A DNA stretch of 42,225 bases from a virus, in the IMG/VR virus record IMGVR_UViG_3300030107_003598, positions 1 through 42,225 of that record, one strand, 5' to 3'. The notes beneath the pieces were generated by a model. The model had not been told where the DNA came from, made no database searches, and saw nothing but the letters and a program-made list of their open reading frames with translations. The translations under genes and the position numbers were made by a program. Positions within the stretch are counted from its first letter, which is position 1. The number at the start of each line of letters is the position of its first letter. Positions 3,645-42,225 of the stretch are shown here, piece by piece.

Positions 3645-3890
3645 ATGCCTTTCAAACTTAAATACAAAAACACTGCTTTTCCGTTTAAAACATCTGCTCT
3701 TAAGCAAGCAGAGGATATGGAAGATGCTAGTGAAGGACGTACTTTTGAAGATTTTATGGAGTTTACTGAAAAAAATAAACAAGAGACAAAGGAGATGTTC
3801 GATTCAATGTCTAAACAAGAAAGAGGGAAAGCGTTAGCTAAAGGTTTGTTTAGAAGAGGTGGTGGGCAAGGCGCTGCTTCGATGATATAA
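3645..3890 (+). CDS. leader-tagged small protein (MPFKLKYKN...SALKQ)
   Basis: 81 residues. The N-terminus MPFKLKYKNTAFPFKTSALK is a variant of the leader shared by many genes in this region and is most like the start of the HExxH protein at 11084 (MPFKMKYKNEAFPFK). After the SALKQ at 17-21 comes an acidic helical region (EDMEDASEGRTFEDF) and a Gly/Arg-rich end. No enzyme motif. I chose this ATG, not the other frame that overlaps it, because the leader is conserved. Role unknown; see the leader-family finding. Confidence 0.85.
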   Translation: MPFKLKYKNTAFPFKTSALKQAEDMEDASEGRTFEDFMEFTEKNKQETKEMFDSMSKQERGKALAKGLFRRGGGQGAASMI

Positions 3891-3907
3891 ATGTAAACAA
3901 TATCACT

Positions 3908-4105
3908 ATGGCATTCAAGATGAAAGGTTGGTCACCATTTAACCAAAATAAAGAAAATTTAATTGAAAAATTAAAAAGAAGAATGAAAAAGACTCAGATA
4001 TTTTCTGATGAACAAGAAGAAGAGAGAGAAAGAGCATCATTTAGTAAAAAATTACACCAAGATGTATTGGATGCTATAAAAGAATTTAAACAACGTAATA
4101 ACTAG
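3908..4105 (+). CDS. leader-tagged small protein (MAFKMKGWSPFNQ)
   Basis: 65 residues: the leader MAFKMKGWSPFNQ, then a highly charged, probably fully helical body (ENLIEKLKRRMKKTQ; EQEEERERASF). The SPFNQ stands where relatives have SPxKQ. Body unlike any other gene here. It follows its neighbour by 17 bases and is followed after 5 bases by another tagged gene; its leader codons are nearly identical in DNA to those at 4111. Function unknown. Confidence 0.85.
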   Translation: MAFKMKGWSPFNQNKENLIEKLKRRMKKTQIFSDEQEEERERASFSKKLHQDVLDAIKEFKQRNN

Positions 4106-4110
4106 ATAAT

Positions 4111-4452
4111 ATGGCATTCAAGATGAAGGGTGTTCCATACCCAGTAAATAGAAAAGGAAAAATTAATCCAAATTCAGAAGGAAATACGGATTTAAAAGAT
4201 GGTAGATCAGCTTCTGCAGCTTTTCAATATAGCTCACCTGCTAAACAATCTAATAAAGATTTAAAAGACTACCTAATTGATGAAAAGGGATTTAATCAGT
4301 CAGATGCTGATAAAATGATAGAAGATGGTGCTTATACTGTTTCAGATAAAGGATTTTTATCGTGGTATAAAACTAAAGATGAACCAGCTCCAGATGTTGA
4401 TACTCCCGCTAAGATATATAAAAAGAAAAAAGGTTCTCACTCAAAATATTAA
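4111..4452 (+). CDS. leader-tagged protein, 113 residues
   Basis: Starts MAFKMKGVPYPVNRKGKINP. A second motif, SSPAKQ, lies near residue 41 after a polar linker, showing that the leader and the KQ motif are separable. The rest is charged with a DKGFLSWYK segment and a Lys-rich C-terminus (IYKKKKGSHSKY). No known domain. It lies in the run of tagged genes from 3645 to 7198 with gaps of only a few bases. Confidence 0.85.
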   Translation: MAFKMKGVPYPVNRKGKINPNSEGNTDLKDGRSASAAFQYSSPAKQSNKDLKDYLIDEKGFNQSDADKMIEDGAYTVSDKGFLSWYKTKDEPAPDVDTPAKIYKKKKGSHSKY

Positions 4453-4455
4453 AAT

Positions 4456-4836
4456 ATGAAAAAATCAGGATTTAAAATGAAAGGATTTTCAGGATTTGGA
4501 AATTCACCCGTTAAACAAGATTCAAACGCTCCAGAAATGCCTAAAAATCCTTCTGATAGAAAAATAATGCAACAGGAGTGGGATAGTCTTTCTACAGAGG
4601 AAAAAGAATATGTTATAAAACAACAATCAAAAGTAAAACCTGTAATAAAGAAGGAAACTGTAGTTGTAGAAGGTGAAGCACCTGCAAAACAAGTAGATTG
4701 GGGTAAGCAGCAAAATATTCAAAAAGCGTTACAAGCCGGTATACAAACACGGCATGATGTAATGGATATAGATGCGCGTGGAAGGGAAAATCTTAAAAAA
4801 TCAGCTTGGAGTGCTGGTGGAATACAGGATATATAA
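4456..4836 (+). CDS. leader-tagged protein, 126 residues
   Basis: The leader has an N-terminal extension: MKKSGFKMKGFSGFGNSPVK, with SPVKQ at 17-21. A second KQ motif, APAKQVDWGKQ, occurs near residue 75. Between them is a charged segment (EWDSLSTEEKEYVIKQQ), similar in pattern to EWDKMTSKEKDDYIY in the next gene, so the two may be related beyond the leader. No enzyme motif is seen. Confidence 0.85.
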   Translation: MKKSGFKMKGFSGFGNSPVKQDSNAPEMPKNPSDRKIMQQEWDSLSTEEKEYVIKQQSKVKPVIKKETVVVEGEAPAKQVDWGKQQNIQKALQAGIQTRHDVMDIDARGRENLKKSAWSAGGIQDI

Positions 4837-4842
4837 AAAAAT

Positions 4843-4871
4843 ATAGGGAAGTACCCTAAACCAAGTTATTA
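4843..4871 (+). repeat. intergenic hairpin element, copy 1
   Basis: ATAGGGAAGTACCCTAAACC followed by AAGTTATTA. It forms a TAGGG/CCCTA hairpin and is repeated almost exactly at 5131-5160. Both copies lie between tagged genes, with an A-rich leader before the next ATG. No U-tract follows, so a processing or translation element is more likely than a strong terminator. Confidence 0.6.
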
Positions 4872-4884
4872 AAGATAAAAAATT

Positions 4885-5127
4885 ATGTCAGGACCATTTA
4901 AAATGAAAGGCTCACCAATGAAGAGAAACTTCGGTATAGGAGCTTCTCCAGCGAAACAAACAACAAAACCTACCGATGAGGAGTGGGATAAAATGACAAG
5001 TAAAGAAAAGGATGACTATATTTACAGAAATACTCCTGGAGGAAATCCATATACAAACCCTGAAAATAAAGAGTTTTATGGAACAAAAACCGGAAATGGA
5101 TATGAGAAAAAAGAAGAAATAGAATAA
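4885..5127 (+). CDS. leader-tagged small protein (FKMKGSPMKR...SPAKQ)
   Basis: 80 residues. The leader MSGPFKMKGSPMKRNFGIGA is followed by SPAKQ at 21-25: the clearest full-length version of the motif pair in the window. The body has EEWDKMTSKEKDDYI, shared in pattern with the preceding gene, then a Gly/Asn/Pro-rich, probably unstructured tail. Function unknown. It is flanked on both sides by the two intergenic hairpin copies. Confidence 0.85.
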   Translation: MSGPFKMKGSPMKRNFGIGASPAKQTTKPTDEEWDKMTSKEKDDYIYRNTPGGNPYTNPENKEFYGTKTGNGYEKKEEIE

Positions 5128-5511: not shown

Positions 5512-5733
5512 ATGGTTTATATACAAGAAAAAAATCCATTTACTAAAAAATCAGCGTTAAAACAAAATGAAATGCTAATACAAGGTGCTTATGATGCCAG
5601 TGAAGGGAAAAAATTAGCAAGCGCAATGGAGGGAGCTAAAGAAAATATAGATGAGTTCGAAGAAGACGCTTCTAAAGAAAAAGAAATAGAAAAATTAACA
5701 AAAACTTACATGCAACAACAAAATCAGGGATAA
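5512..5733 (+). CDS. leader-variant small protein (NPFTKKSALKQ)
   Basis: 73 residues. It lacks FKMKG but starts MVYIQEKNPFTKKSALKQ, so it keeps the second half of the motif (SALKQ, 14-18). The body is acidic and helical (EGAKENIDEFEEDASKEK) with AYDASEGKKLASAM, which recalls EDASEGRTFEDFM in the gene at 3645. These two may be distant relatives. Ends in a Gln-rich tail. Function unknown. Confidence 0.8.
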   Translation: MVYIQEKNPFTKKSALKQNEMLIQGAYDASEGKKLASAMEGAKENIDEFEEDASKEKEIEKLTKTYMQQQNQG

Positions 5734-5735
5734 TT

Positions 5736-6170
5736 ATGGCATTTAAAATGAAAGGTAGCCCAGCCAAAATGGGTACGATAAAAGGTACAAGTGGATATGC
5801 TTCTGCATTAAAGAACGCTTCAGCGTTAAAACAAGTAGTAGAAGAAAAGAATGATCCTATTATAGACTTAAATGATGGCTACGAAGAAGATAGACCGGAT
5901 TTTGTTAGTAAATCTAACACGTACACACTTCATGAAGAGTATGGTGTTGAGGGTGTTCCAAAAGGAGCTGTTATAAAAGATCCTAAAGGATTAGTTGGTA
6001 AACAGTTTGATGAACGTACTCCAGATGCTAATTTTACTTACACAGTTAAAGGTAATGTGGTTACTATAACTGGTGTGTCTACACTTAGTGAAGATGATCC
6101 TGGGTATGAAGATGAAAAAGTTATTTTTGGCCAAGAATTAGTTCCGGTTGAATCAGAAAGACCTTTATAA
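5736..6170 (+). CDS. leader-tagged protein, 144 residues, paralog of the gene at 6863
   Basis: Leader MAFKMKGSPAK, then GTSGYASALKNASALKQ at about 17-33. The same block, GTSGHTSALKSISPFKQ, occurs in the protein at 6863, and both end in a small beta domain (FTYTVKGNVVTITGV here, YIYKVDSEGNHIITGI there). The two are therefore homologous over their length. The body has acidic, exposed segments. No enzymatic motif. Confidence 0.85.
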   Translation: MAFKMKGSPAKMGTIKGTSGYASALKNASALKQVVEEKNDPIIDLNDGYEEDRPDFVSKSNTYTLHEEYGVEGVPKGAVIKDPKGLVGKQFDERTPDANFTYTVKGNVVTITGVSTLSEDDPGYEDEKVIFGQELVPVESERPL

Positions 6171-6193
6171 TAATAAAATAAAAAATTAAAGAT

Positions 6194-6847
6194 ATGGCAT
6201 TTAAAATGAAAGGCTTTCCTATGCAACAAACAGCTGTTAAGTACAATCCAAAAGCTTTAACACCAAAACAAAAAAATCTTTTAGAAGCAGTACCTGATAA
6301 AGAAGCATATGATAAATTATCAGATATTGATAAAAGAGGTTTTAATGATGCAGCTAGAGAAGCTGGTTTACCAACAAAACCAATAAAGTATAAAGCACCG
6401 TTAAAGCAAGTAGATCCAACTTTTGGTCAAAAAATAGGTAAAAATAAAGTAGATTTAGGAAAATACGTTTTAGATATAAGTAGTAAGGAAGGTAAAGATT
6501 TTTTCGAAAAATATAAAAATATTAAAACTGTTAGCTCTAGTGAACCATCAAGAGTGGGTAAAACAACAGCTCAACAATTAAATATTCCTGAAGGGAATAA
6601 AAGTAAAATTCGTAATATATTAAAGAAAACAACAAAGCTTGGAGGAAAAGCTTTGAAAAATTTAATCAAACTTGCTGGGGGAACTGTAGGCGCGCTTGCT
6701 CAATTTATGCTAATGCCTGTTGAAGCTGGAGCTTCTGAAGCAGAGTGGCAAAAAGAAAATTGGGAAAGAATGATGAGACAACTTGAAAAAGATGCGGCAA
6801 AAAATCAATCAGAAGAAGGAGGAGAAGATAAAATAATAATAGAGTAA
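6194..6847 (+). CDS. leader-tagged protein with a hydrophobic segment, 217 residues
   Basis: Leader MAFKMKGFPMQQTAVKY, then NPKALTPKQ and, near residue 73, KAPLKQ. A hydrophobic, Gly/Ala-rich region at roughly 149-180 (LIKLAGGTVGALAQFMLMPV) could span or insert in a membrane. It is followed by EAGASEAEWQKENWE and a charged end. A membrane-active internal virion or lysis-related role is possible but unproven. It is the largest of the tagged genes before groEL. Confidence 0.85.
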   Translation: MAFKMKGFPMQQTAVKYNPKALTPKQKNLLEAVPDKEAYDKLSDIDKRGFNDAAREAGLPTKPIKYKAPLKQVDPTFGQKIGKNKVDLGKYVLDISSKEGKDFFEKYKNIKTVSSSEPSRVGKTTAQQLNIPEGNKSKIRNILKKTTKLGGKALKNLIKLAGGTVGALAQFMLMPVEAGASEAEWQKENWERMMRQLEKDAAKNQSEEGGEDKIIIE

Positions 6848-6862
6848 TAATAAATAGAAATT

Positions 6863-7198
6863 ATGGGATATAAACAATCACCATTTCCAATGCAACAAGG
6901 TACAAGTGGACACACTTCTGCACTTAAAAGTATTTCACCATTTAAACAAGATGATTTAGAGACAAGAAAAATGCAAGCAGCGGAAATGGGTCAAGATGTA
7001 GATGACCAAGGAGTAAAAGAGACATCGACAATTGCTGGACAGTTTTTAACATCAACTGGAAAAGGTAAATTTTATGATGAAACTAATGATATAACTTTTT
7101 CTGATCCACAAGGTATAATTAAAACGCTAGATGAAGATAAAAGTTATATATATAAAGTAGATTCAGAAGGAAATCATATAATAACAGGTATTAAATAA
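6863..7198 (+). CDS. leader-variant protein, 111 residues, paralog of the gene at 5736
   Basis: Starts MGYKQSPFPMQQGTSGHTSA; SALKSISPFKQ follows at 19-29. The FKMKG part is replaced by GYKQSPFPMQQ, so the leader tolerates change while the KQ motif persists. The C-terminal domain (ITFSDPQGIIKTL ... YIYKVDSEGNHIITGI) matches that of the 144-residue protein. It is the last gene before groEL, 41 bases upstream. Confidence 0.85.
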   Translation: MGYKQSPFPMQQGTSGHTSALKSISPFKQDDLETRKMQAAEMGQDVDDQGVKETSTIAGQFLTSTGKGKFYDETNDITFSDPQGIIKTLDEDKSYIYKVDSEGNHIITGIK

Positions 7199-10748: not shown

Positions 10749-11075
10749 ATGGCATTTAAAATGAGAGGATTTCCAATGCAAGATACTTCAGCATTGAAAA
10801 ATTATAACAAAATGAGTGATTATTCTTCAAAATCTGTAAAATTTGGAGAAGACGAAAAAGATCCAGCATTTAAACAAAAAGAAGGTAAGAAAAAAGTTAA
10901 TATGGATGAGGTTTACAAAATATTAGATGAAAAGATGGGACATACTGAAGGTTTTTCTGCAAAAGAAATAGCAGCTATGTCTGAAAAAGAAAGAGAAGGC
11001 AATATAGATGGTTACGAAATAGGAGATTTTGATAGAATGGTAGCGGAAGCTAAAAAACAACTTGAGGGTAAATAA
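10749..11075 (+). CDS. leader-tagged protein, 108 residues
   Basis: Leader MAFKMRGFPMQDTSALKNYN, with the first Lys of KMKG changed to Arg. A second motif PAFKQ occurs near residue 38. The remainder is charged and helical (MDEVYKILDEKMGHTEG; SAKEIAAMSEKEREGN). This copy lies 3.5 kb from the main cluster, showing the leader is not limited to one tandem block. Function unknown. Confidence 0.85.
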   Translation: MAFKMRGFPMQDTSALKNYNKMSDYSSKSVKFGEDEKDPAFKQKEGKKKVNMDEVYKILDEKMGHTEGFSAKEIAAMSEKEREGNIDGYEIGDFDRMVAEAKKQLEGK

Positions 11076-11083
11076 AGAATAAT

Positions 11084-11455
11084 ATGCCATTTAAAATGAA
11101 ATATAAAAACGAGGCGTTTCCTTTTAAAGGAGAGAGTCACGATTTTGTACATAAGGGTTGGAAAGTAATAAGAAAAGACTTAGATGACGGTATATTAGGC
11201 GAGGCTAATAATGACGGTACTATATATATAGACGAAAGTATACCGGCTGGTAGTGCTAAAGAAAAAGAAGTCGTGAAACATGAAGCGGTGCATCAAGAAG
11301 ATATGGAAAATGGTGATTTAGCATACACAGATAATGATGTTACTTGGAAAGGTAAAAAATACGCTAGAAAAGACGGTAAAATAAAATATAAAGGAAAATG
11401 GTTAGAAGAAGGTGATCACTCTTTTCCTTGGGAGAAAAAAGCACATAACGCATAA
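11084..11455 (+). CDS. leader-tagged HExxH protein, putative zinc metallopeptidase
   Basis: 123 residues. Leader MPFKMKYKNEAFPFK, then a compact domain with HEAVH at 66-70 (preceded by KEVVK), the zinc-binding and catalytic signature of gluzincin/metzincin-type peptidases. A downstream Glu in FPWEKKAHNA near the C-terminus might be the third zinc ligand. The TIYIDESIP strand precedes the active helix as in minimal metallopeptidases. It could process virion proteins, host wall components or leader-tagged partners. The holin follows two genes later. Activity is inferred from the motif only. Confidence 0.65.
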   Translation: MPFKMKYKNEAFPFKGESHDFVHKGWKVIRKDLDDGILGEANNDGTIYIDESIPAGSAKEKEVVKHEAVHQEDMENGDLAYTDNDVTWKGKKYARKDGKIKYKGKWLEEGDHSFPWEKKAHNA

Positions 11456-11458
11456 ACT

Positions 11459-11893
11459 ATGTCATATAAACAAACAAAGAAACCGTATTACATGAAAGAG
11501 AGACCTAGTGGATTAAACATGGGTAGTGGTGATTCGAGTGTATTTTATAGCGATGAAATGTCATCACCATTATATCAAAAACCACATTCTCCATTACATC
11601 CAGCACCTGGTGAAAAAGAAGTACCTGGAAGGTTTGATGTTGGTGCCGTATATGAAGTTTTAGATAATGGAGAAAAAGTAAGAATATCTTATGAAGAAGG
11701 TATTAAAAAAGCAAATCAACTTAAACATATAGTTTTCAGTGGTGATTATTTAATTAAGGCTTTAGAAACGGGAGCTTTAGATGAGTTTAAAAATGATCAA
11801 GAAGCAACTAGAAAAATGATTGAAGAAGAAAGAAGAAAAATGAAAGGTGGATTAAGTGATGAAGAAATGCAAAAAGCTAAAGAAATAGAATAA
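11459..11893 (+). CDS. leader-variant protein, 144 residues
   Basis: Begins MSYKQTKKPYYMKERPSGLN, with SPLYQKPHSPLHP near 37-49, a divergent double version of the SPxKQ motif. The C-terminal two thirds contain a small folded region (VGAVYEVLDNGEKVRISY) and a charged helix (QEATRKMIEEERRKMKGG). No enzyme motif. It is followed by the holin after one base, so it may belong to the lysis unit. Confidence 0.75.
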   Translation: MSYKQTKKPYYMKERPSGLNMGSGDSSVFYSDEMSSPLYQKPHSPLHPAPGEKEVPGRFDVGAVYEVLDNGEKVRISYEEGIKKANQLKHIVFSGDYLIKALETGALDEFKNDQEATRKMIEEERRKMKGGLSDEEMQKAKEIE

Positions 11894-14218: not shown

Positions 14219-14470
14219 ATGGCGTTTAAATTACCTGGACCATCATTATACCCTAATATAAAAATATCAAAAACTGGATATAAAAAAAATAGTCCAGATG
14301 TTAATAATCCACATAATTTAATATTAAGTGGAGATATAACTATGAAAGATGTAGAGTTTTCTGTTCACGGTATAGATAATAAAGGTAATGAAAAAATCAT
14401 GAAACCTGGTAAAGACTATAAGTTTCCAGGTGATATGGTTTTAGAAACGTCTTTAGCAAAAAATAAATGA
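14219..14470 (+). CDS. leader-variant protein, 83 residues
   Basis: Begins MAFKLPGPSLYPNIKISKTG, a variant of the MAFKMKG leader, then KKNSP at about 21-25. The body is a small beta-like domain (NLILSGDITMKDVEFSVHGI) without known motif. Its stop overlaps the next start in ATGA. Function unknown. Confidence 0.8.
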   Translation: MAFKLPGPSLYPNIKISKTGYKKNSPDVNNPHNLILSGDITMKDVEFSVHGIDNKGNEKIMKPGKDYKFPGDMVLETSLAKNK

Positions 14471-19948: not shown

Positions 19949-21103
19949 ATGGCAAAAAAAGAAACTAAAGAAGTAGTAGTGGAAGAAGTCACTACTAAAG
20001 AACAACCCAAGGCAGATGCTGAGGTTGGGAAAATAAAAGTTAAAAAGAAAACTTCTATGAAAAAGAAAGTGGATACTGGTGAACCTATAAAAGTTGACTT
20101 AAGTAAAACCAAAGTTAAAGAAGAAGAAAAAGAGGTTACAAAAGTAGATTTAACTAAAGAAAATGAAGAAAAAACTATTGAAAACGTAGAAGTAAAAGAC
20201 TCTTCACAAGATTTCGTTTTAGAAGAAGTTACTGATGAAGAAGTAAAAGAAAAACCAATTACGTCTAAAGAACCTGAATTACCAGAAAATATTCAAAAAG
20301 TTGTAGATTTTATGAAAGATACTGGTGGGGATTTACAGGATTATATAAATCTAAATCAGGATTATGGTAAGTGGGAAAGTGATGAGTTATTAAGAGCTTA
20401 TTATAAAGATACAAAACCACACTTAAGTGATGATGAAATATCTTTCATAATGGAAGATAATTTTAAATATGATGAAACTTTAGATGATGAAAAAGATATT
20501 AAAAGAAAAAAATTAGCGTTAAAAGAGCAAGTTGCCAGCGCTAAAACCCACCTGGACGGGATAAAGTCCAAATACTACGAAGACATTAAAATGGGTTCTA
20601 AACTCACAAGTGAGCAACAAGAAGCTATTGAATTCTTTAGTAGTTATAAAGAGGAATCAGAAAAGATTCAACAACTGTCAGAAGAAGCAAAATCTATATT
20701 TTTAAATAAAACCGATGAAATATTCAATGAAAATTTTAAAGGATTTGAATATAAAGTTGGAGATAAAAGATATAGATTTAATGTTAAAGATATTAACCAG
20801 ACTAAAGAAAACCAAGCAGACATTAATAATTTTGTCAAGAAGTTCTTGAATAAAGATAATTTAATGGAAGATGCCGCAGGTTATCATAAAGGTTTGTTTA
20901 CTGCTATGAATTCTGATGCTATTGCAAATCATTTTTACGAACAAGGTAAAGCAGATGCTTTAAAAGAAAGTATTGCTAAATCTAAAAATGTAAACATGGA
21001 TCCACGACAAGAATTAAGTAATAATATTAATACTAGTGGTATAAGCGCAAAAGCTTTGAATTTAGAATCTGATTTTCAATTTAAAATTAAAAAACGAAAA
21101 TAA
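19949..21103 (+). CDS. scaffolding protein
   Basis: 384 residues, extremely rich in Lys and Glu in the first 100 (KVDLSKTKVKEEEKEVTKVD), then helical (LALKEQVASAKTHLDGIKSK) with a basic C-terminus (FQFKIKKRK). This composition and its place between portal and major capsid protein identify a scaffold that shapes the prohead and leaves before or during packaging. The basic tail is the usual capsid-binding end. Its AT-rich leader and first codons (MAKKETK) resemble those of the gene at 22718. Confidence 0.82.
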   Translation: MAKKETKEVVVEEVTTKEQPKADAEVGKIKVKKKTSMKKKVDTGEPIKVDLSKTKVKEEEKEVTKVDLTKENEEKTIENVEVKDSSQDFVLEEVTDEEVKEKPITSKEPELPENIQKVVDFMKDTGGDLQDYINLNQDYGKWESDELLRAYYKDTKPHLSDDEISFIMEDNFKYDETLDDEKDIKRKKLALKEQVASAKTHLDGIKSKYYEDIKMGSKLTSEQQEAIEFFSSYKEESEKIQQLSEEAKSIFLNKTDEIFNENFKGFEYKVGDKRYRFNVKDINQTKENQADINNFVKKFLNKDNLMEDAAGYHKGLFTAMNSDAIANHFYEQGKADALKESIAKSKNVNMDPRQELSNNINTSGISAKALNLESDFQFKIKKRK

Positions 21104-21127: not shown

Positions 21128-22627
21128 ATGGCAATTACTGCAGGAGGTAGTTTGAATAGTGTGCCGGCACCAGTGCCACAAACACTACAAACAAATTACC
21201 TAGATTTTACGGGTACTACGGATACAACGTGGGCTCAACAATATTTACCAGATCTAATGGAGAAAGAAGCTGAAGTTTTCGGACCGAGAACTATTTCAGG
21301 TTTCCTTTCGCAAGTTGGAGCTGAAGAGGCTATGCAAGCTGATAGAGTTGTATGGTCTGAACAAGGTAGACTACACTTATCTTATAAAGGTCACATTGAA
21401 AGTGCTACAGGAGGTACAGCATCTGGTGGACAAATAGAGATTGAAACTGATATTGATGGAAATGATATTGGTGCAAATCACGGTATTAGAGTTAATGATA
21501 CAGTTATTGTAGCGAACTCTGAAGGTGTTGTAAAATGTCTTGTAGAAGCTGTTGATACAGGTTCTATGATCGATGTATTACCTTATGACTTTGCATCTTT
21601 AAATACTGCTAGTATAACAACTACTGGTGGAACTCAAGATACAACTATACTAGTTTATGGTTCTGAATATGGTAAAGGTGTAAGTTATAACAACAGTGCA
21701 AACAGTGCTGCTACTGATCAAAGAGGTGCTAATGAGCCTTCTTTCCAAACTTTCCAAAACAAACCAATTATCTTAAAAGATTACTACGAAGTATCAGGTT
21801 CTGATACAGCTAGAATTGGTTGGGTTGAAGTTACGTCTGAAGAAGGTGCTTCTGGATACCTATGGTATTTAAAAGCTGAATCTGACACTAGAGCACGTTT
21901 TACTGATTATTTAGAAATGGCAATGTTAGAAGGTGAATTAAACTTAGCTGATTCTCAATTAGACGGTAACGCTCTTATTGATGGTTCTGTTGCCGGTGCT
22001 GGAAACGTTGGTACTGAAGGTTTATTCGCTGCTATCGAAGCTAGAGGAAATATGTCTTCTGGTATTACTGGTGGTGGTGGTGATTTAGCTGAGTTTGATG
22101 CTATTTTAGCTGAATTTGACAAACAAGGTGCTATTGAAGAGTATATGATGTTCTTAAACAGAAGTACTTCTTTAGCTGTTGATGACATGCTAGCTTCTAT
22201 GAATTCTTACGGAGCTGGTGGTACTTCTTACGGAGTATTTGATAACGAAGAAGAAATGGCTCTTAATTTAGGTTTCTCTGGTTTCAGACGTGGATCTTAC
22301 GATTTCTACAAATCTGACTTTAGATACTTAAATGACTTAGCTACTAGAGGTGGTATTAACGCTGCTAACACTGCTGCTGCAATTAGAGGTGTTATGATAC
22401 CTGCTGGTACATCTACTGTTTATGACCAATCATTAGGAAAGAATTTAAAACGTCCTTTCTTACATGTACGTTATAGAGCTTCTCAAACTGATAACAGAAA
22501 AATGAAAACTTGGACTACTGGTTCAGTTGGTGCTGCTACATCTGCTTTAGATGCGATGCAAATCCACATGCTTTCTGAAAGATGTTTAGTTACTCAAGGT
22601 GCTAATAACTTTATGTTATTAAACTAA
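21128..22627 (+). CDS. major capsid protein
   Basis: 499 residues following the scaffold. Begins MAITAGGSLNSVPAPVPQTL, then LMEKEAEVFGPRTISGFLSQ, an HK97-type beginning, with long loops (ATGGTASGGQIEIETDIDGN) and a terminal TQGANNFMLLN. The gene has the most biased codon use in the window (many GCT, GGT, TCT and TTA) and is followed by the strongest terminator, as expected for the most abundant virion protein. A fold call of HK97 type is from context and composition. Confidence 0.88.
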   Translation: MAITAGGSLNSVPAPVPQTLQTNYLDFTGTTDTTWAQQYLPDLMEKEAEVFGPRTISGFLSQVGAEEAMQADRVVWSEQGRLHLSYKGHIESATGGTASGGQIEIETDIDGNDIGANHGIRVNDTVIVANSEGVVKCLVEAVDTGSMIDVLPYDFASLNTASITTTGGTQDTTILVYGSEYGKGVSYNNSANSAATDQRGANEPSFQTFQNKPIILKDYYEVSGSDTARIGWVEVTSEEGASGYLWYLKAESDTRARFTDYLEMAMLEGELNLADSQLDGNALIDGSVAGAGNVGTEGLFAAIEARGNMSSGITGGGGDLAEFDAILAEFDKQGAIEEYMMFLNRSTSLAVDDMLASMNSYGAGGTSYGVFDNEEEMALNLGFSGFRRGSYDFYKSDFRYLNDLATRGGINAANTAAAIRGVMIPAGTSTVYDQSLGKNLKRPFLHVRYRASQTDNRKMKTWTTGSVGAATSALDAMQIHMLSERCLVTQGANNFMLLN

Positions 22628-25934: not shown

Positions 25935-28900
25935 ATGCCTGAAATGAAGCATAATTTTCTCAAAGGTCGTATGAATAAAGATCTTGATGAGAGATTAGTA
26001 TCTGATGGAGAGTATAGAGAAGCTATGAATATAGAGGTGGCCACATCCGAGTCTGATGCTGTGGGTACTGTTCAGTCTACTCGTGGTAATATTATGGCTT
26101 ACAATACGGTACTAGATACACCTAGTAATAGGTTGGCTCCACAAGGAGGAGAAATAGTAGGATCTTATGCACATGGTAGAGAAGATACTATATACTTATT
26201 TGTAACATGTAAAGAATACACGCATGCCGCTAGTGGTCATATAGTTAAGGATATGATTGTTGAGTATAAAGATGGTAATGTATTTCCTGTTATTGTAGAT
26301 GTTCATATGGTTACATATAGAGCATCAGAAATTGATTCTATAGACACTGATACCCGTAAAATATTTATGGATACTATTGCCACTGATGGTGTTGCGAATG
26401 TAGATAGTACCCCAGGTAATACAGTTACTTTTTATAATTCAAATGGAATAATGTTACTTGAAACAGAATTATACTCTACAAATACAGCGAGTAATAGTTT
26501 AACATTCGTAGATGACGTAAGCTTATATATGCCTTGGGTTGTAGACCCAGCAATGCGAGTAAGTACAATTGTTTATAATCGTAAAAAAATTTTAAATTTT
26601 AAACCATCTAATATTATAACTGGGATAAATATTATAGATGATTTGTTATTTTGGACAGATAATGTATCTGAACCTAAAAAAATAAATATACAAAGATCAA
26701 AAGAAGGAACATCAGGTTTTCATCAAAGATCTAAATTTAGGGTTCGCGCTGAAGATGGTAGTGTGCAATCTGAAAAACCAATGCAAGAGGAGCATATAAC
26801 TATGGTAAAACGTTCTCCATTAAAACCACCAATATTAGAAATGTATAATAATATAGATGGTAGAGGAGAGATTGCTGGTCGTACGGATTTGGTAAATCTT
26901 ACAACTCGAGTAGATATTGGTAATGGTGTTTTTGAAGTAAGACAACCTAATGTAGATTCTGTATTAGAAATACCTATGTCGGGTAATATGCCAGAATATG
27001 AAGTTGGTGATATATTATTATTTTCTAATGATGAAATTAATATTAACGTAGGTGGAGCATTTGATAGTGACTGGCAAGTAAGAGGATATTTGATGGAAAT
27101 AATAGGTAGTAGTTTACGTATAAAAGTATTAGGAGTAGATCCTGATTTTTTTGATTTTGTAGAAGACCTTACAAATAATACAGTAGGTGAAGTGTTTGCT
27201 GTTTCATTAGAACAAGCAAAAGCTCTATTTGAATTTAAATTTCCTAGATTTGCGTATAGATACAAATATCAAGATGGTGAATACTCTTGTTTTTCCGGAT
27301 TTTCAGAGATAGCGTTTTTACCAGGAAATTTCAAATGGAATTCTTCGTCAGGTTATAACATTGGAATGGTAAATCAATTAAGATTTTTAAAAATAATGGA
27401 TTTTGTTCCTGATGGTATACCAAAAGGCGTTACGTCTATAGATATATTATATAAAGAATCAAATTCTCCAAATATATATACTGTAAAAACAATAAAAAGT
27501 ACAGATAGTGAATGGAACGCCGTTGGATCTGGTGGTCCAACAGCTATGACTAAAGGTAGATTAGAATTAGAATCAGAAGTAATATACGCAACTGTTCCTT
27601 CTAATCAATTATTAAGACCATGGGATAATGTTCCAAGATTTGCTTTAGGACAAGAAATTGTTGGTAATAGAGTTATTTACGGTAATTATGTACAGAATTA
27701 TAATATACCCAAAGACGTTAGTAGTAATATAAATATAAAAACATATATAAAATCAAGATCTATAGACAGTATTCTTGCTGAGATAGATGTTTTAGGTCAA
27801 CCAGGTAAGTCTATAAAATCTTTAAGAACTTACCAATTAGGAGTTGTATATAAAGATATTTATGGTAGAGAAACTCCAGTCTTAACTAATGAAAAAGCTT
27901 CTTTTAATATAGGTAAACAACAAGCTGCTGAGTATAATAGTTTATCTATACAAGTTAGAAATCCAGCTCCAGAATGGGCAGAAACATTTAAAGTTTTTGT
28001 TAAAGAAACCTCTAATGAATATTATAATTTAGCAATGGATAGATGGTATGAGGCTGAAGACGGTAATATTTGGATGTCTTTTGCGTCAGCTGATAGAAAT
28101 AAAGTCCAAGAAGATAGTTATTTAATATTAAAAAAAGAACATGATAGTGACGAGCCAGTATTAGAAGAGGGTAGATATAAAGTATTAGCAATAGATAATA
28201 ACGTACCAGATTACGTAAAAACAGAAAGACATAGTTATGGTGATGGTGACTGTGAAAATGATACCTTTTCCCCAGATGATGGTGATTTTACAGTACAAAA
28301 ATGGGAAGAAACTCAATTTGAAAATCAACTTGAAAAAGAAGCTGGATTACGTGTTAGATTAATGGATGCCTCAGCAGCTAATAAAACAGATTGGTATAAA
28401 ATAAAATCTATAAAAGTTAAAGGTGGTAGTAATAAAATTGCAACTATATCTATACGTGGCTCGTTCGGTGAAGGTATAGAAAGTATAGCACCAGAACCAA
28501 CGACAGCTTACGATCTTAAATTTGAAATATCTCAATTTAAAGAAGTAATGAAACCTGAATTTGATGGGAGATTCTTTGTTAAAGTCGTAAAAGAAACTGC
28601 GCTTATAAATAAAATAACTTTAAAAAACGCAAGTCTAACAGGCAAACAGTTTGTCGTATCAAACTTTGCTAGACAGTATTTTATTAGAAACATGGATCCG
28701 AATACTAGATGGAGTAGAGAGTCTCAATGGTATGACTCTAGTCAGGGTTGGAAAAAGAAAATGAGAAAACACACTGGAAGAAATGAAGCTTTTTTTATAG
28801 ATGATCTACGTAGAGGTAGCGCCACAGGATACGGAGTAGATAATGGCTATGGAATTAATGGTTCTAGACCATCGAATAAAGCCCCGGAATTAAGTTGTCA

Positions 28901-34909: not shown

Positions 34910-35293
34910 ATGCTAATATCAATAAGTTTTCCAAACATAATAAACGTTTCTGTTCAACCTAATCCAGACGCGTTATACACAAATGTACAAGGAGCAGATG
35001 TAGCGTATTACGTGCAAACAAACCCAGCAACATTACCACAAGCAACATCTGTAGGTAATATAGTAGAAATTGGACCCGTTGTAGAAACGACTAATAATTC
35101 TATAATTTGTGATGTTAATCCTAATTATAATATAGCTGATATAGCAGGAAAATTTATATTATTTACAAAAAATGCAAAAGCAAATATGAGTAGTTTACTA
35201 GGTTATTATGCGAGGTTTAGGTTTGAAAACTCTTCGGGTGAAGACGCTGAATTATTTTCAATAGGAAGTGAGTTCTTTGAAAGTAGTAAATAA
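34910..35293 (+). CDS. 127-residue virion-associated protein, unknown
   Basis: Begins MLISISFPNIINVSVQPNPD. It contains GADVAYYVQTN, FILFTKNAKANMSSLLGYYA and a C-terminal ELFSIGSEFFESSK. Largely beta. It starts one base after the appendage gene and so is probably made with it. No domain known. A small appendage accessory or tail completion protein is the best guess. Confidence 0.75.
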   Translation: MLISISFPNIINVSVQPNPDALYTNVQGADVAYYVQTNPATLPQATSVGNIVEIGPVVETTNNSIICDVNPNYNIADIAGKFILFTKNAKANMSSLLGYYARFRFENSSGEDAELFSIGSEFFESSK

Positions 35294-35363: not shown

Positions 35364-36029
35364 ATGGACCCAATGGCAATGATGGGCGCGATGACGTCGG
35401 CAGGTGGTATAGTAAGCGGAATAGGTGGTATAGCTAAAGTTGCTGGATCATTTATAGGTAGAAAAGCTAGAATAGCAGAGCAAAAAAGAGCAAATGCAGA
35501 ACTAGCAAAACGTAAAGCCGAATATGAAGGTATGGACATTACTAATCCCTATGCTAATTTAGAAAATACTTATGAAGATTTAGAAGTAAATACACAACAA
35601 GCAGATTTTGTTGCACGACAAAACCAACAACAACAAGCAAATATCATGCAGGGATTACAAGGTGCTGCTGGTGGGTCTGGTATAGCAGCGTTAGCGCAAC
35701 AAATGGCTAATCAAGGGCAACAACAAATAGCCGCTGCCTCAGCTTCCATCGGACAACAAGAGCAAGCTAATAGAATGGCTGCCGCTAGAGGAGAAGAAGC
35801 TATACAAGCGAAGAAAGCTGCTGGTGAACAATGGAAATTTACTCAAGAAAAAGATCGTACAGAAACTTTATTTGGTATGGCACAACAGAGAAAGGGAGCT
35901 GCAGATGCCGCTAGACAACGAGCAACAGACATGATGGTGTCTGGAATTGGTGATATTGCTGGTGGTGTTATGTCATTTGGTATGGGTAATAAAATGCAAG
36001 GCAAAACATTTATGGGTGGTGCGGCGTAA
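35364..36029 (+). CDS. putative internal virion (ejection) protein
   Basis: 221 residues. A Gly/Ala-rich amphipathic start (MMGAMTSAGGIVSGIGG; AKVAGSFIGRK), an Ala/Gln-rich helical middle (RQNQQQQANIMQGLQGAAGG; QQQIAAASASIGQQEQANRM) and another Gly-rich end (GIGDIAGGVMSFGMG). This composition is typical of small podovirus internal core proteins such as T7 gp14, which insert in the host membrane during DNA ejection. The two large cargo-type genes follow, which agrees. Assigned by composition and context. The 70 bases before it are plain AT-rich DNA. Confidence 0.6.
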   Translation: MDPMAMMGAMTSAGGIVSGIGGIAKVAGSFIGRKARIAEQKRANAELAKRKAEYEGMDITNPYANLENTYEDLEVNTQQADFVARQNQQQQANIMQGLQGAAGGSGIAALAQQMANQGQQQIAAASASIGQQEQANRMAAARGEEAIQAKKAAGEQWKFTQEKDRTETLFGMAQQRKGAADAARQRATDMMVSGIGDIAGGVMSFGMGNKMQGKTFMGGAA

Positions 36030-36046: not shown

Positions 36047-38725
36047 ATGGCAAAGAAATCAAAGAAAAAAGATAATAGTTCCGCTTTAAACAGCAATATA
36101 TCTCCATTAAAAATAAATTCAACTTTAGTTAAAGGAGCAGCATTAACTAATTATTATAGTGGTGGTGAAACAGCTACTGGTTATGGTGAAATTAAATGGG
36201 ATAAAATGTTTGATCCTATGAAAAAAGCATTACAAGATGCTATGAATGTTTATCAAAAATTTGGAAGCAAGGGTGATAGCGATGTTTGTGAATGTAAAGA
36301 AGAAGGAGCAGACGGTGTTACAAAAACTTATACTGGTAGAAGAAATCCTGAAACTGGTAAATGTGAATGTGATCCTGGTTCTGGAAAAGGTGAAAGCGAA
36401 ACAGACAGAGAAAAACCCGAAACACAATCTAAAAAGATTTGGCCAGAAGATAAAAAGGAAATGTGTAAATGTGAAGGTAAAACAAATTTATTTGCAGATG
36501 ACAAAGATTGTGATTGTTCATCAGATGATACTTCAGCAACAACAACAACACCACCTACCGAAGTTCCACCAGATTTTGTACCACAAGATTGTGAGTGTAT
36601 AGGAGCAGATGGCGTTACAAAAACTAAAGGTAAAACAACACCAGATGGAGGTTGCGATTGCGCAGCAGAAGAAGCAGTATCTACAACTACAACTACAAAC
36701 CAACAAGATTTAGATAAACAAAACGAGGAAGAACAAGAAAAGTTAGACGAACAAAAGAAAGCTGAAGAATTAAAAAAACAACAGCAAGCTGAAGCTGAAG
36801 AATTAAAAAGGATTGAAGAAGATTTAAGAAAGAAAAATCTAAAAATTAATCGAGATAATGAGTATAGTTCTAGTCAACAAGAAGCGTTTAATAATTCTTT
36901 GTCTGAAGATAATGTAAACGTAAATGTTGTAAGTAATTGGACTGATAAAAATTCACCTGCAAGTAATCATTTAGGTGGTGGTAATTTAGAAAGAAAAAAA
37001 GGAAATTATCAATATAACTTTGAAAAAGTTGGTGTTGATAAAAATGAATTTATGATAGATGCTAACGGTGAGAAAATAGTAGATGCTAACGGTAATAATA
37101 TAAAAAATCCTAATTATAAAAAACCAATATATAAAATAACTGGTCAGACAAATAAAGGTAAAGACAGTCAAGGTAAAGAATTTGACTATAGTTTTAATAC
37201 TGAAGATGGTAATATAAATTTTAATGCTAATGTCTGGAACCCAACTCTTAGTAAAATTCCTGGATTTCCAGGAAAAAAACCACCTAAAGGTAAATATTTA
37301 ACTATTTCTCCAAATGATTGGAATACTTTTGTTGATAATTATACACAAATTTTAAACAGCGCTAAAATAAAAAGAAGTAAAGTTAAAGAAAGGGGAGATA
37401 TAGCAAAACAAAATTTTACTAAACAAGAAATCGCCGTTTTAAAAATGGAAGCTAGAGGGTTTTTTACGAACCCTATAGTAGAACCACCACCGGCACAAGA
37501 AGATGATAGTGGTCTTGGTGGCTATAAAGAAGATTCACCAGTTACGTATAAAATACCTATTAAAAAAACAACACCGTTTGCTAGACGTGATCGAGGTTAT
37601 TTAAATGTTCGTAAAAAGTGGATGCCTAATCAACCACAACAAGATATGATGGGTAATATGGGAACACCTATGGAGTATGATAGCCCATTTCATCAAGAAG
37701 AAATTATTGAAGATTCATTACAGCAAACACCTGTCTCTGAAAGTGGCGAAACAATATGGGATAAAATGATGATGTATGGAGATGGTATAGATAATCAAGT
37801 TGAGAAATTTATTAGCCATACAGAGTATGATCCAAATTTCCAAAAACCTATAGAAACTATAAAAAATCAAGAATGGGTTGGCACAATAACAAAATGGTTA
37901 AAAAATAAAAAACAAGAAATAATAGATGCTAGTAAAAACAAAGATAAATTATTAGAACAGCAATTAAACGCACATGTAAACACTTTAATTCAAGACGTTA
38001 CTTCGTACGCTGGTAAGTTTATAGAATGGTTAGAAAGAAATGGTAGTGATGCAACTCCAGGAGCAATAGGTGGATCTGTGGTTTCAGATGGATCTAGAAA
38101 AGATGAAAAATTTATAGCTAATTTAGCTTTTATGGGTGACACAAATACTGATTTTGGTATTGATCCTGAAGGTAGAATAGGTATAAAATCATATGGATTA
38201 GAAGATATAAGAAGAGTTCAAGATTTAGATGGTGGTGTATTCCGTAAAGATGATTCTGGTTTAGCAACATTTTTAGATATATTAGGTACAATGCAAGATG
38301 ATGCTGAAGCAAATAGACCTTTAAATGAAAATATAGTAAAAGGACAAGCTGATTTATTAATAAAACAACAAGATAGTTTACTTTCTTGGGCACATGATCC
38401 TTTATACGGTCAAGCTTGGATACAAGATTTTGCGCAAGCAAATCCTAATGAAGATATTTCTTGGGCAATGCCTGAAAGTGATATGTTTGATAAAGAGAGA
38501 TTAGAAGACGAAATTCACGGTTGGTTGGTTAACAAGTTAACACAAGCTTATAATAATAGAAGACCTAAAAATGAAAAATCTGTAGATCAAATACATAAGG
38601 AGACTATGGTAAGTTTAGAAAAACAAGAGACTAAAAAGAACCAAAAATTACCACAGCATATGATGCGAAATAGTCCACTAGCAAATAAGTCAAGAGCACA
38701 GCAATTAATAGAAAAATATAGTTAA
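36047..38725 (+). CDS. large internal virion or cargo protein with SPLK and CxC motifs
   Basis: 892 residues. N-terminus MAKKSKKKDNSSALNSNISP followed by LK: both SALN and SPLK echo the KQ motif of the small tagged proteins. Residues about 79-210 have three Cys-x-Cys pairs-of-pairs, as in VCECKEEGADGVTK ... CECD and DCECIGADGVTK ... CDC. A Glu/Gln/Lys coiled coil follows (220-265). Further SP motifs occur (EDSPVTYK, YDSPFHQ) and the C-terminus is MRNSPLANKSRAQQLIEKYS. Position after the ejection-type gene suggests packaging inside the head. No enzyme motif recognised. Confidence 0.7.
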   Translation: MAKKSKKKDNSSALNSNISPLKINSTLVKGAALTNYYSGGETATGYGEIKWDKMFDPMKKALQDAMNVYQKFGSKGDSDVCECKEEGADGVTKTYTGRRNPETGKCECDPGSGKGESETDREKPETQSKKIWPEDKKEMCKCEGKTNLFADDKDCDCSSDDTSATTTTPPTEVPPDFVPQDCECIGADGVTKTKGKTTPDGGCDCAAEEAVSTTTTTNQQDLDKQNEEEQEKLDEQKKAEELKKQQQAEAEELKRIEEDLRKKNLKINRDNEYSSSQQEAFNNSLSEDNVNVNVVSNWTDKNSPASNHLGGGNLERKKGNYQYNFEKVGVDKNEFMIDANGEKIVDANGNNIKNPNYKKPIYKITGQTNKGKDSQGKEFDYSFNTEDGNINFNANVWNPTLSKIPGFPGKKPPKGKYLTISPNDWNTFVDNYTQILNSAKIKRSKVKERGDIAKQNFTKQEIAVLKMEARGFFTNPIVEPPPAQEDDSGLGGYKEDSPVTYKIPIKKTTPFARRDRGYLNVRKKWMPNQPQQDMMGNMGTPMEYDSPFHQEEIIEDSLQQTPVSESGETIWDKMMMYGDGIDNQVEKFISHTEYDPNFQKPIETIKNQEWVGTITKWLKNKKQEIIDASKNKDKLLEQQLNAHVNTLIQDVTSYAGKFIEWLERNGSDATPGAIGGSVVSDGSRKDEKFIANLAFMGDTNTDFGIDPEGRIGIKSYGLEDIRRVQDLDGGVFRKDDSGLATFLDILGTMQDDAEANRPLNENIVKGQADLLIKQQDSLLSWAHDPLYGQAWIQDFAQANPNEDISWAMPESDMFDKERLEDEIHGWLVNKLTQAYNNRRPKNEKSVDQIHKETMVSLEKQETKKNQKLPQHMMRNSPLANKSRAQQLIEKYS

Positions 38726-38733
38726 AATATAAT

Positions 38734-41700
38734 ATGAGCAAATATCTAGAAAAACTAGTAGAGAACATGTTAGCAGACAATGTGTCTGAGGAAGATATTA
38801 AGTTAGTTATAAAAGAGATTAATCAAAAATCTCCTTTACGACAAACTATAACGTCCCCTAATATTGATGTACCACCACCTAGTGTTAATATAAGTGGTCA
38901 AGCTTTAGAAGAGTCAGGTGATATGTATGCTTTTGCTCCAACTGGATCAGAACAATTAGTTACAGAAGAAGAGAAGGAACAAGAGGAACTTGTAGCTATT
39001 GAAGAACCGATTGAAATTGAAACAGTTGAAGAAGAGGTAAAAGAAGAACAAGAAGATATAAGTGATAAGCAAAAAGAAGTAGAGGAAGAACTAGATAAGC
39101 AAATAGAAAAAGAAGAAGAATTTGTACATCCTTTTTACAATGATGATTTAACTATAAAACCAGAATTCTTTGAATTAGACGAAGACAAAGGACGATCATC
39201 TCTACAAAATTTCTATGGCGGTTTAGGACTGAGTGTCGATACAGAGGGTTATGGTACTAATAAAATATCGTTGAGTTTTCCCGATTATGAACCAGTGTTA
39301 GAGATACCTATGAATGTTTGGCTAGAAAAAAATAGGGAAGAATATACTAATCAAATTAATGAGTATATAAACAGTTATATTAATGATGAGTTTGGAAGAG
39401 AAAACTTTAATGTGTATTCTGAGGCTGTTTACAAAATGACTAAAGATATAAATGATATTAATAAGCAAGTAAAACCAGAAGGTGTTAAAGAATCAGAATT
39501 GCTTTTATCTAGTCAAGATTTAAATTGGTTAAATTACTTTAGCGAATTTAAACAAACAGATGTGTTTAAAAAAATACAAGAAGAATCTAAACCTACAGAT
39601 GAAGATATAAACGGGCTCATTAAAAGAGAAATTGAAAATTTATCTATAGAAGAAAGACAAGAGATAGAAAAAGATTATACTATATTAGAAAAAAAATTAG
39701 AACTTGCTATTGATGATTTGTTTTTAACAAACATTATGTATAACGAAGATTACGAAGCGCATATGAGTTTAATTGAGGGCGCTATAAATTCTGTTTATAC
39801 AAATAGAATAAAAAAAGCTGTAAAAACAGAAACTGGAGATGAGTATTATCCAATAATCTTTAGAGGGCCAGATAACGATCTTTTACAAGGAATGTATGAT
39901 GCTGGGCGTTTTGTTATACCAATGGGTCTTAAAAATGCAAAAATGTGGAGAAACGCACAAGAACTTAAATTAGTAGAAAATATAATAAGTAGATATAATC
40001 TAAGAAATAGAAACCCTAATGAGAAAATTGAATTTGAAGGATATCAAAAATATTTTAAAGAAACCGAATTTAAGTGGTGGTTTGGACCGGTTTCAGATAA
40101 AAGAAAAAAAGAATGGGGTTATAAATGGTATTGTTTAGAGCCGGGTAAAAAAGATATAAAAGCAAATTACAAATATGTTGCTGACGTAAATAAAAGACCA
40201 AAAGAAAGTGTTTGTAGGTTATTACCAGATACAAGACAGTTAAATCAAGCGTTAGATATACAACCAACAAAAAAATTTCCAAAAAAATTTACTAAGGAAT
40301 GGAGAGAAATAACAGGTATTGAACATGGAGATTATAAAACTCTAAAATCGAGTTATTCCCAATACAATCAAGCTCAAGCCAAGAATAAATTAGAAAAAGC
40401 ATACGGTTCTGGTCCAACCGAGTATACTGTTGGTGAACTATTAAAAAAATTAGAAGAAGTTGGTGATATTTGGCAAGATCAAATATTTGAATCTTTTTTA
40501 GAAGTTCAAGAATATCAAGAAATATTACAAAAATTAGGGCAACCTCAATTTGTTACTGACGCAAACGGTGAGACTAAATGGAGTTATGATATTGATGATA
40601 ACCAGAAAGTTTTAGGTACTCAAATTGTGCAAATGTTTGTTAATATAATGACTTTTGGTATGACAAACTTCAACCAGTCTGCTGGTGGATTTTTTTATGA
40701 TGCACTAATGGATATTTCTGCTAAAGAAATAGGTTTATCAATAGATGCTTTCAATAAATTACCAGTTAGCTATCAAACACAAGTTATGTTTGATGTTATT
40801 GAATCTGGTCTTATGGATAAAGCTATAGCCGATGCTCATGCCGTTGGTACTGGTAGTTGGTTTTTAGAATATCTTGGTGATTTATTTGTTATTGGAAGAT
40901 TTGGTGGAACAATTTTACCTAGAGGTTTTTGGCAAGGTATTACAAAAGAAGGACTTAAAAAGACATTGAGTCAAACTTCTAGCAAGAAGGCTTTAAAAAA
41001 TTTTACTAAAGAAGGATTTAGTACAGTATTTGTTGAAAAAATTGTTGAGGTAGGTCAAGAGGGTATAAGTGATTATTATAAATTAAAAAATAATGTATCT
41101 ATTGGTACGCCTGGGGAAATAAGAGCTAGATATCTAAACGTTGCTTTTACAACACTTATTACTGTTCCTTTTATATTTATGGGTGGAAGATTAGGTAATC
41201 AAACTGTTAGTCAAGCTTATGACGCGGTACAAAGAAGAATTTTATCTTATAAAAACCCAGAGCATGTACGAATAATGTGTGAAGCGGAAATAGACGGTGT
41301 AAAAAGTGCTTATCAAAATGGTGATTTAGATTTTGATGATATGACTAAACAAATTGAAGCGCTAGAGGCAGCTAAAAGTGGATTATCAAGTTTAGACGAT
41401 ACTGTTCTTAAGAGTTTAAATGCTAAAGAAAAGCAAGCTATAATAAATGAAGAGTTAGTAAAGATAAAGAATACAAAAGAAATAACTAAACTTGAAAAAG
41501 AGTTAGAAGATTTAGAAAAAGGATCTCGTGAATATAAAAATTTATATGCAAGAATTTACAGAAGAAAAAGTAAAGTAAAAAACGCTCAACAAAAACAAGT
41601 TAATATAAGACGTGTAAACCAACTATTAACAGAAGGAAAAGATAAGTGTAATCAAATAAATAACAACACGACACGAGAAGGACATAAAGATTTTGGAAAA

Positions 41701-42225
41701 AAAGCGGTTTATTTAAAATCAAAAGATGATGTTAGAAGACATTTTGAAAAAAATGGATACGGTAGTTTTACTAAAGAAGAAATAGATAATTACTTAAATG
41801 AAAAAGAAAACAATAGCGGATCTAAATCTCTAGCGTTAACTAGTAAAGATAATATGATGTTTGTTATATGTACAGATATAGTACAAAACATGATAGAAGC
41901 CGAAGGTGATTGGGCAGCCTCAAATACAGTGGTTCACGAAGTAGTTCACATAGACACCGCGGATTTAACACCAGAACAATTATTGTTAAAAATAATTACA
42001 ATAGATAAAACTATACAAGAGGCTAGTAAAACTGATCCAATATGGAAAAGCATTGCTGAAGATCAAAAACTTAGAGAAACAGCTTACTTATTAAAAGAAC
42101 TTAGTGAGGGAAAAAGTTTTGAAGAAGCAAGAATTGTAATATTAGAAGAATACTTACCTACTTTATCCGATGTAGTTAATAACTATAGATTAAATGATTG
42201 GTCTGTTGAGGGTTCTGTTTACTGG
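38734..42225 (+). CDS. giant internal virion protein, 3' end outside the window, with HExxH
   Basis: At least 1164 residues with no stop before the window edge. Starts MSKYLEKLVENMLADNVSEE; SPLRQ at 33-37 matches the leader-family motif. Then an acidic stretch (about 70-130), a mixed region, hydrophobic segments near 710 and 810 (FLEYLGDLFVIGRFGG; LITVPFIFMGG), a coiled coil near 880-960, and VVHEVVHIDT with HEVVH at 1068-1072, a zinc-peptidase signature. The size, order and hydrophobic segments fit a podovirus ejection protein that carries an enzyme domain. The peptidase call rests on the motif only. Confidence 0.7.
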   Translation, partial: MSKYLEKLVENMLADNVSEEDIKLVIKEINQKSPLRQTITSPNIDVPPPSVNISGQALEESGDMYAFAPTGSEQLVTEEEKEQEELVAIEEPIEIETVEEEVKEEQEDISDKQKEVEEELDKQIEKEEEFVHPFYNDDLTIKPEFFELDEDKGRSSLQNFYGGLGLSVDTEGYGTNKISLSFPDYEPVLEIPMNVWLEKNREEYTNQINEYINSYINDEFGRENFNVYSEAVYKMTKDINDINKQVKPEGVKESELLLSSQDLNWLNYFSEFKQTDVFKKIQEESKPTDEDINGLIKREIENLSIEERQEIEKDYTILEKKLELAIDDLFLTNIMYNEDYEAHMSLIEGAINSVYTNRIKKAVKTETGDEYYPIIFRGPDNDLLQGMYDAGRFVIPMGLKNAKMWRNAQELKLVENIISRYNLRNRNPNEKIEFEGYQKYFKETEFKWWFGPVSDKRKKEWGYKWYCLEPGKKDIKANYKYVADVNKRPKESVCRLLPDTRQLNQALDIQPTKKFPKKFTKEWREITGIEHGDYKTLKSSYSQYNQAQAKNKLEKAYGSGPTEYTVGELLKKLEEVGDIWQDQIFESFLEVQEYQEILQKLGQPQFVTDANGETKWSYDIDDNQKVLGTQIVQMFVNIMTFGMTNFNQSAGGFFYDALMDISAKEIGLSIDAFNKLPVSYQTQVMFDVIESGLMDKAIADAHAVGTGSWFLEYLGDLFVIGRFGGTILPRGFWQGITKEGLKKTLSQTSSKKALKNFTKEGFSTVFVEKIVEVGQEGISDYYKLKNNVSIGTPGEIRARYLNVAFTTLITVPFIFMGGRLGNQTVSQAYDAVQRRILSYKNPEHVRIMCEAEIDGVKSAYQNGDLDFDDMTKQIEALEAAKSGLSSLDDTVLKSLNAKEKQAIINEELVKIKNTKEITKLEKELEDLEKGSREYKNLYARIYRRKSKVKNAQQKQVNIRRVNQLLTEGKDKCNQINNNTTREGHKDFGKKAVYLKSKDDVRRHFEKNGYGSFTKEEIDNYLNEKENNSGSKSLALTSKDNMMFVICTDIVQNMIEAEGDWAASNTVVHEVVHIDTADLTPEQLLLKIITIDKTIQEASKTDPIWKSIAEDQKLRETAYLLKELSEGKSFEEARIVILEEYLPTLSDVVNNYRLNDWSVEGSVYW

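Follow-up and report, generated by a model that had tools for sequence, protein, structure and literature searches.

Do the short S-P-x-K motifs that recur near the N-termini of two large ejection-cluster proteins and of many small late proteins of one virus act as an address for the inside of the particle? The question is raised by the adjacent E2 and giant genes in a window of 42,225 bases (the whole stretch of DNA analysed, a virus fragment of 32% GC). A sequence-only reading had claimed that the motif marks the two largest probable internal virion proteins and ties the small leader proteins to the interior of the particle. Gene calls were mechanical, the E genes were assigned partly by synteny, and all features given below with both ends are on the + strand.

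The TerL, portal and major capsid protein (MCP) of the window match virus families, and the portal matches P22_portal. The closest named relatives by TerL are ctfjg026 (64%) and the Flavobacterium elemo phages (47%), with Maribacter phage Panino and Cellulophaga phi38:1/phi40:1 (Pervagoviridae) also near. MCP and TerL matches were obtained with the elemo, Panino, ctfjg026 and Cellulophaga phages, and the gene order is homologous too. By TerL, portal, MCP and gene order the window phage is assigned to a Pervagoviridae-related podovirus lineage, and the window to an uncultured podovirus-like one; the lineage with the tag consists of uncultured marine bacterial viruses, podoviruses. The late genes start in the order TerL (15274), portal (17496), putative scaffold (19949), MCP (21128), structural protein (25935), anchor (34910), E1 (35364), E2 (36047) and giant (38734, running past the window end). 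The putative scaffold (19949..21103), proposed here as the tag receptor, lies between portal and MCP, and its lineage homologues match phi40:1 gp92. The MCP (21128..22627) is an untagged control, and a conserved protein of about 120 aa upstream of the ejection cluster (34910..35293), recognised by alignment, served as synteny anchor.

E1 (35364..36029), a helical ejection-cluster protein of 221 aa, is untagged in the window phage and directly precedes E2 (36047..38725), the second protein of the cluster, which is tagged, has 892 aa, lies between E1 and the giant and is syntenic with phi40:1 gp100. The giant (38734..42225) has at least 1164 aa and is cut by the window end. Both motif-bearing genes therefore lie by an ejection-type gene, as had been claimed, and the motifs fall where they had been placed: in the translation of E2, SALN occupies residues 12-15 (36080..36091) and SPLK residues 19-22 (36101..36112), within the first 25, followed by TPFARR (residues 509-514, 37571..37588) and SPFHQ (546-550, 37682..37696) in mid-protein and by SPLANK at the C-terminus (876-881, 38672..38689; RNSPLANK at 874-881), and SPLRQ is found at residues 33-37 of the giant (38830..38844). 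The objection that such motifs might be as common in shuffled proteins failed for both proteins, since in whole-protein shuffles two S[PA][LMFIVA][KNQR] matches within E2 residues 1-25 occurred with a frequency of 5e-5 and one within giant residues 1-40 with a frequency of 0.012. Across the full E2, [ST]P[LMFIVA] was found 8 times against 1.36 expected (0/2000 shuffles); along the part of the giant in the window it was not enriched (1 vs 1.19 expected). The description of E2 and the giant as the two largest probable internal virion proteins calls for a small correction, in that the structural protein at 25935, with 2159 aa, is larger than any other protein of the window. This protein has a lone internal SPLK at position 294 that is likely to be a chance occurrence; N-terminal motif enrichment was looked for in its family and none was seen. 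The SALK of GroEL presumably belongs to a conserved GroEL stretch. Residues ~79-210 of E2 also contain repeated Cys-x-Cys units (CECKEEGADGVTKTYTG..., CDCSSDD, DCECIGADGVTKTKGKT), the E2 relative of L286 has similar CxC stretches with poly-Asp runs between them, and the giant shows HEVVH, a possible zinc-metallopeptidase signature, near the window end.

No relatives of E2 were found in cultured phages or in the first viral scan, and a scan with an E2 profile recovered two contigs, both of one sister group (L217, the sister phage, and L286, which is closely related to it); motif retention in them thus represents two independent lineages at most. The L217 ortholog of E2 is 46% identical over aligned columns. 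SALN is absent from it, and the remaining motif sites read SPFN (for SPLK), SPFERR (for TPFARR), SPMMQ (for SPFHQ) and TPMQYK (for SPLANK), with SPLKQ for the SPLRQ of the giant, so that the possibility that orthologs lack the motifs did not hold. Much of the sequence flanking these sites has diverged. The predicted contrast between a kept motif and varying flanks is sharpest upstream of the E2 SPLK and in the giant, since the stretch that follows the E2 SPLK is conserved as well. Complete-looking giant relatives have 2400-4000 aa. The N-termini of the giants of L210-L263 occur in several exchangeable modules (FLxxxPNA, LExLVxxMxxxGxSExxI and YVxTANNP types), which might be alternative docking modules, and in one giant the first 70 residues match ctfjg026 (E=4e-11).

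The small late genes carry the motif in another setting, behind a leader. Five small leader/SP-tagged genes (3645, 3908, 4111, 4456 and 4885) occupy 3645..5127, and four further tagged ones (5512 with SALKQ, 5736, 6194 and 6863) lie ahead of GroEL in 5512..7198. They are accompanied in the window by a leader protein starting MAFKMRG with SALK (10749..11075), a small leaderless protein with SPLYQ and SPLHP (11459..11893) and a leader-variant protein starting MAFKLPG (14219..14470). A DNA pattern for the MAFKMKG start was found in at least 119 viral stretches, and the TerL family phrog_6681 was present in 48 of the 50 leader contigs tested (the exceptions being a 120-kb and a 23-kb contig), so that the leader marks the lineage. 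The fetched loci yielded 204 distinct leader proteins (203 of at least 50 aa), which fall into about 106 body groups without detected similarity beyond the leader. Within residues 8-60, S[PA][LMFIVA][KNQR] is present in 85 of the 204, against 6.6 in shuffles, and the first motif has a median position of 15. Leader and motif are restricted to late genes: across six long genomes, the 302 genes of the late strand include 37 for motif proteins (7.2 expected) and 27 for leader proteins, and the 193 of the opposite strand include one for a motif protein (3.3 expected) and none for a leader protein.

Selection acts on the leader as a peptide, since its codons vary synonymously (Gly 0.38/0.23/0.20/0.19), and an origin at nucleotide level, as a translation signal, is not favoured for the same reason. 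A general cellular motif was also rejected: the pattern gave 27 matches in 257 Gb of cellular genomes, close to the 15 roughly estimated for chance, none of the 27 had phage homologues nearby, and nothing was found in the literature for the leader string. The largest leader group (L203 and 37 others) includes YKSDAQRKAVHASKAE and tandem AAMKMKKE-like repeats. Another leader protein (L198:348-683) has SPAK twice and a C-terminal RKSYCARSAG...WKC domain, which several functionally unassigned PHROG families also have at their ends.

The same motif was then sought in 49 ejection clusters from relatives, located via the conserved anchor gene. The main pattern was [ST]P[LMFIVANTH][KNQR] in residues 1-40, sequences with 70% identity across those 40 residues being discarded as near-duplicates; all patterns were chosen after the motif had been seen, and related genomes are not fully independent. 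Ejection proteins were tagged in their first 40 residues in 24 of 136 cases and late controls in 3 of 454 (Fisher P ~1e-13), the controls being the TerL, portal, scaffold, MCP, 22718, 23769, 24480, 25935 and 32425 families, GroEL, GroES and others; with the narrower S[PA][LMFIVA][KNQR] the counts were 22/136 and 4/454. By gene, tags were found in 14/46 E1, 5/45 E2 and 5/45 giant proteins (0.33, 0.61 and 0.78 in shuffles), and the anchor protein was at background level. In E1, with its own pattern, 13 matches fell in residues 1-20 (0.36 expected) and none in residues 21-320. Glutamine at the fifth position, which had not been searched for, followed 8 of the 26 N-terminal matches (31%, with a background of 5%; P ~4e-5) and only 5 of the 90 downstream ones. 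It is also common at this position in leader proteins, which identifies the motif of both sets as the same. The tag consensus is S-P-[L/M/F]-K-Q near the N-terminus.

E1 is one homologous family, and on its tree the tag has been gained or lost at least 9 times, with at least 4 changes forced by well-supported (starred) branches. No tagged E1, E2 or giant was found in 30 of the 49 clusters (~60%), so that the tag is not obligatory for entry. The earlier proposal is supported in part: the motif of the small leader proteins does mark the ejection cluster, statistically and specifically, whereas an interior location of the leader proteins and their internalisation by the motif would be further steps, and the clusters with no tagged member speak against a required role. 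Chance, composition or shared descent alone is a very improbable source of the N-terminal motifs, common as serine-proline pairs are in disordered N-termini and tagless as most clusters are, because composition-matched shuffles and gene-class controls contradict it, as do the residue at the unsearched fifth position and the repeated gain and loss on the E1 tree.

The link to the virion comes mainly from phi40:1, in which gp99-101, at the E1, E2 and giant positions, are virion proteins according to an MS/MS-based GenBank annotation, as are the small basic gp69 and gp80. The E1-E2-giant order downstream of the head and stabilisation genes is common to the 49 clusters and to phi40:1, where it is MS/MS-backed. 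A profile of 49 E1 proteins matches phi40:1 gp99 (E=3e-6); the E2 and giant profiles, run against the cultured relatives, gave no match to gp100 or gp101, and E2 and the giant are assigned by position. In two genomes the lineage homologue of gp80 is tagged (MKGSPIRL and MTGSPIKL, the latter if translation begins inside the mechanically called ORF), and a weak phmmer match between gp69 and one leader protein (E=8e-4) was given no weight. In G055, whose E1, E2 and giant are untagged, a 553-aa SLT transglycosylase carries SPLKQ at residues 12-16 and two more SPxK. This tagged lytic transglycosylase and the tagged gp80 homologue agree with the pattern. Peptidoglycan-cleaving domains on ejection proteins were found in relatives only (the G055 SLT and a phage lysozyme domain at the N-terminus of the L210 giant relative) and none in the window. 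No tagged proteins were found in the regions examined of MS-analysed cultured phages, nor was a cultured or mass-spectrometry-analysed tagged phage found.

The E1 model is helical with a mean pLDDT of 71; neither a sequence comparison with the PDB nor Foldseek with this medium-confidence model gave a match, and E1, E2 and the L217 giant had no Pfam match. No homology to T7 gp14-16 or P22 gp7/16/20 was found by sequence or fold, and the ejection set is for this reason likened to the T7/P22 families and not filed under them. The E1 C-termini of L223, L225, L254 and L260 (KNIxLIGxSxSGLxIYxFEYK-like) have what we take to be a resemblance to a tail-spike chaperone domain.

The motif is probably, if not securely, an N-terminal tag targeting proteins to the particle interior, acting like the capsid targeting sequence of T4 or the N-termini of the P22 ejection proteins. 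S-P-[L/M/F]-K-Q would be a short linear motif recruiting late proteins into the assembling head, probably through the scaffold or the inner procapsid face, and the recruited proteins would be packaged and then ejected alongside the DNA. The small late proteins would present the motif behind the MAFKMKG leader, and E1, E2, the giant and the lytic transglycosylase would present it alone, with repeated gain and loss. For the tagged clade we infer a location in the virion, recruitment by the motif with the scaffold as partner, and ejection into the host.

In T4 the first 10 residues of IPIII are sufficient for head targeting (PMC9026906). The targeting sequence of IPI-III and Alt is likewise a short N-terminal peptide on unrelated small basic late proteins, with fast turnover of the bodies and the peptide placed where an interior address would be (PMC9026906); here too a short peptide is common to unrelated proteins, the leader to the body groups and the tag to E1 residues 1-20. 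The T4 sequence is a different one, however, and in the window lineage the large ejection proteins are tagged too. This lineage is also podovirus-like with a P22-like portal, unlike the T4-like myoviruses, and no gp21-type protease or cleavage is shown here. P22 also has three virion-internal proteins, gp7, gp16 and gp20; according to the available part of one account, the ejection proteins enter via N-terminal parts, which suffice for gp7 and gp20, and require the scaffold (PMC8402733), but that part describes neither a common portable motif nor a big set of small proteins sharing a leader (PMC8402733).

Cleavage of T4 propeptides brings up a different function, since these join targeting and cleavage in one segment: the motif could be a processing site, at or near which a phage protease cuts SPxKQ during head maturation to remove N-terminal propeptides. 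We regard this as unlikely, although a candidate protease could be the leader-bearing HExxH metallopeptidase (11084..11455). H66, E67, H70, W116 and E117 are invariant across 48 homologues of this protein, which is late, lineage-wide and ~100-165 aa long (61 found, among them L179, L264 and L095) and starts nearly always with M[AG]FK[ML]. Its predicted structure is a disordered leader on a folded body, with a weak resemblance to selecase (4qhf; profile E=0.015, plus fold), and a role as a maturation or an ejected protease is possible. Of those window proteins that were scanned, none was recognised as a serine prohead protease, which also counts for processing. However, the usual substrates, capsid and scaffold proteins, are untagged, and several motifs along the length of E2 are retained.

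Somewhat less probable still is a contact with nucleic acid in the manner of the S-P-K-K minor-groove unit, through which small basic proteins would be held on the packaged A/T-rich genome. The leader N-termini are indeed basic (mean +4 in 30 residues), 96 of 217 S[PA]xx occurrences have lysine as their fourth residue, and phi40:1 packages small basic proteins; but position 3 is mostly hydrophobic and not basic, E, D, Q and T also occur at position 4, and position 5 prefers Q as well as K. To a generic signal of late proteins apart from the particle, such as a handle for the phage's own GroEL/GroES or for a host factor, we assign a similarly low probability: many leader genes adjoin chaperonin genes, but the capsid and other late proteins are untagged when the ejection cluster is tagged, and the elemo phages have GroEL/GroES without the tag in the regions examined.

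The interior-targeting reading can be set beside two further groups of phages. In phiCrAss001, which also is a podovirus-like phage of Bacteroidota, gp45-gp50 are large protein cargo of the head that exits via portal and tail (PMC10172136), but the cargo proteins are few and large and the available part of that account describes no loading tag (PMC10172136). The Pervagoviridae/Elemovirus phages (phi38:1, phi40:1, elemo phages) share the TerL-portal-scaffold-MCP...E1-E2-giant order and a homologous E1, but have neither the MAFKMKG leader nor SPxKQ in the late proteins examined. A fuller version, in which leader and tag (MAFKMKG + SPxKQ) form a two-part code that loads and delivers up to about a dozen fast-evolving small proteins per genome, including the metallopeptidase, together with the ejection machinery, is offered tentatively and may well prove too strong. 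If the reading is true, sequence alone would be enough to predict which unknown small late genes of these marine phages encode proteins that travel in the virion and enter the host, a second short capsid-loading peptide would exist besides that of T4, unrelated to it and shared with the ejection machinery, and the motif would give a possible handle to package chosen proteins in podovirus shells.
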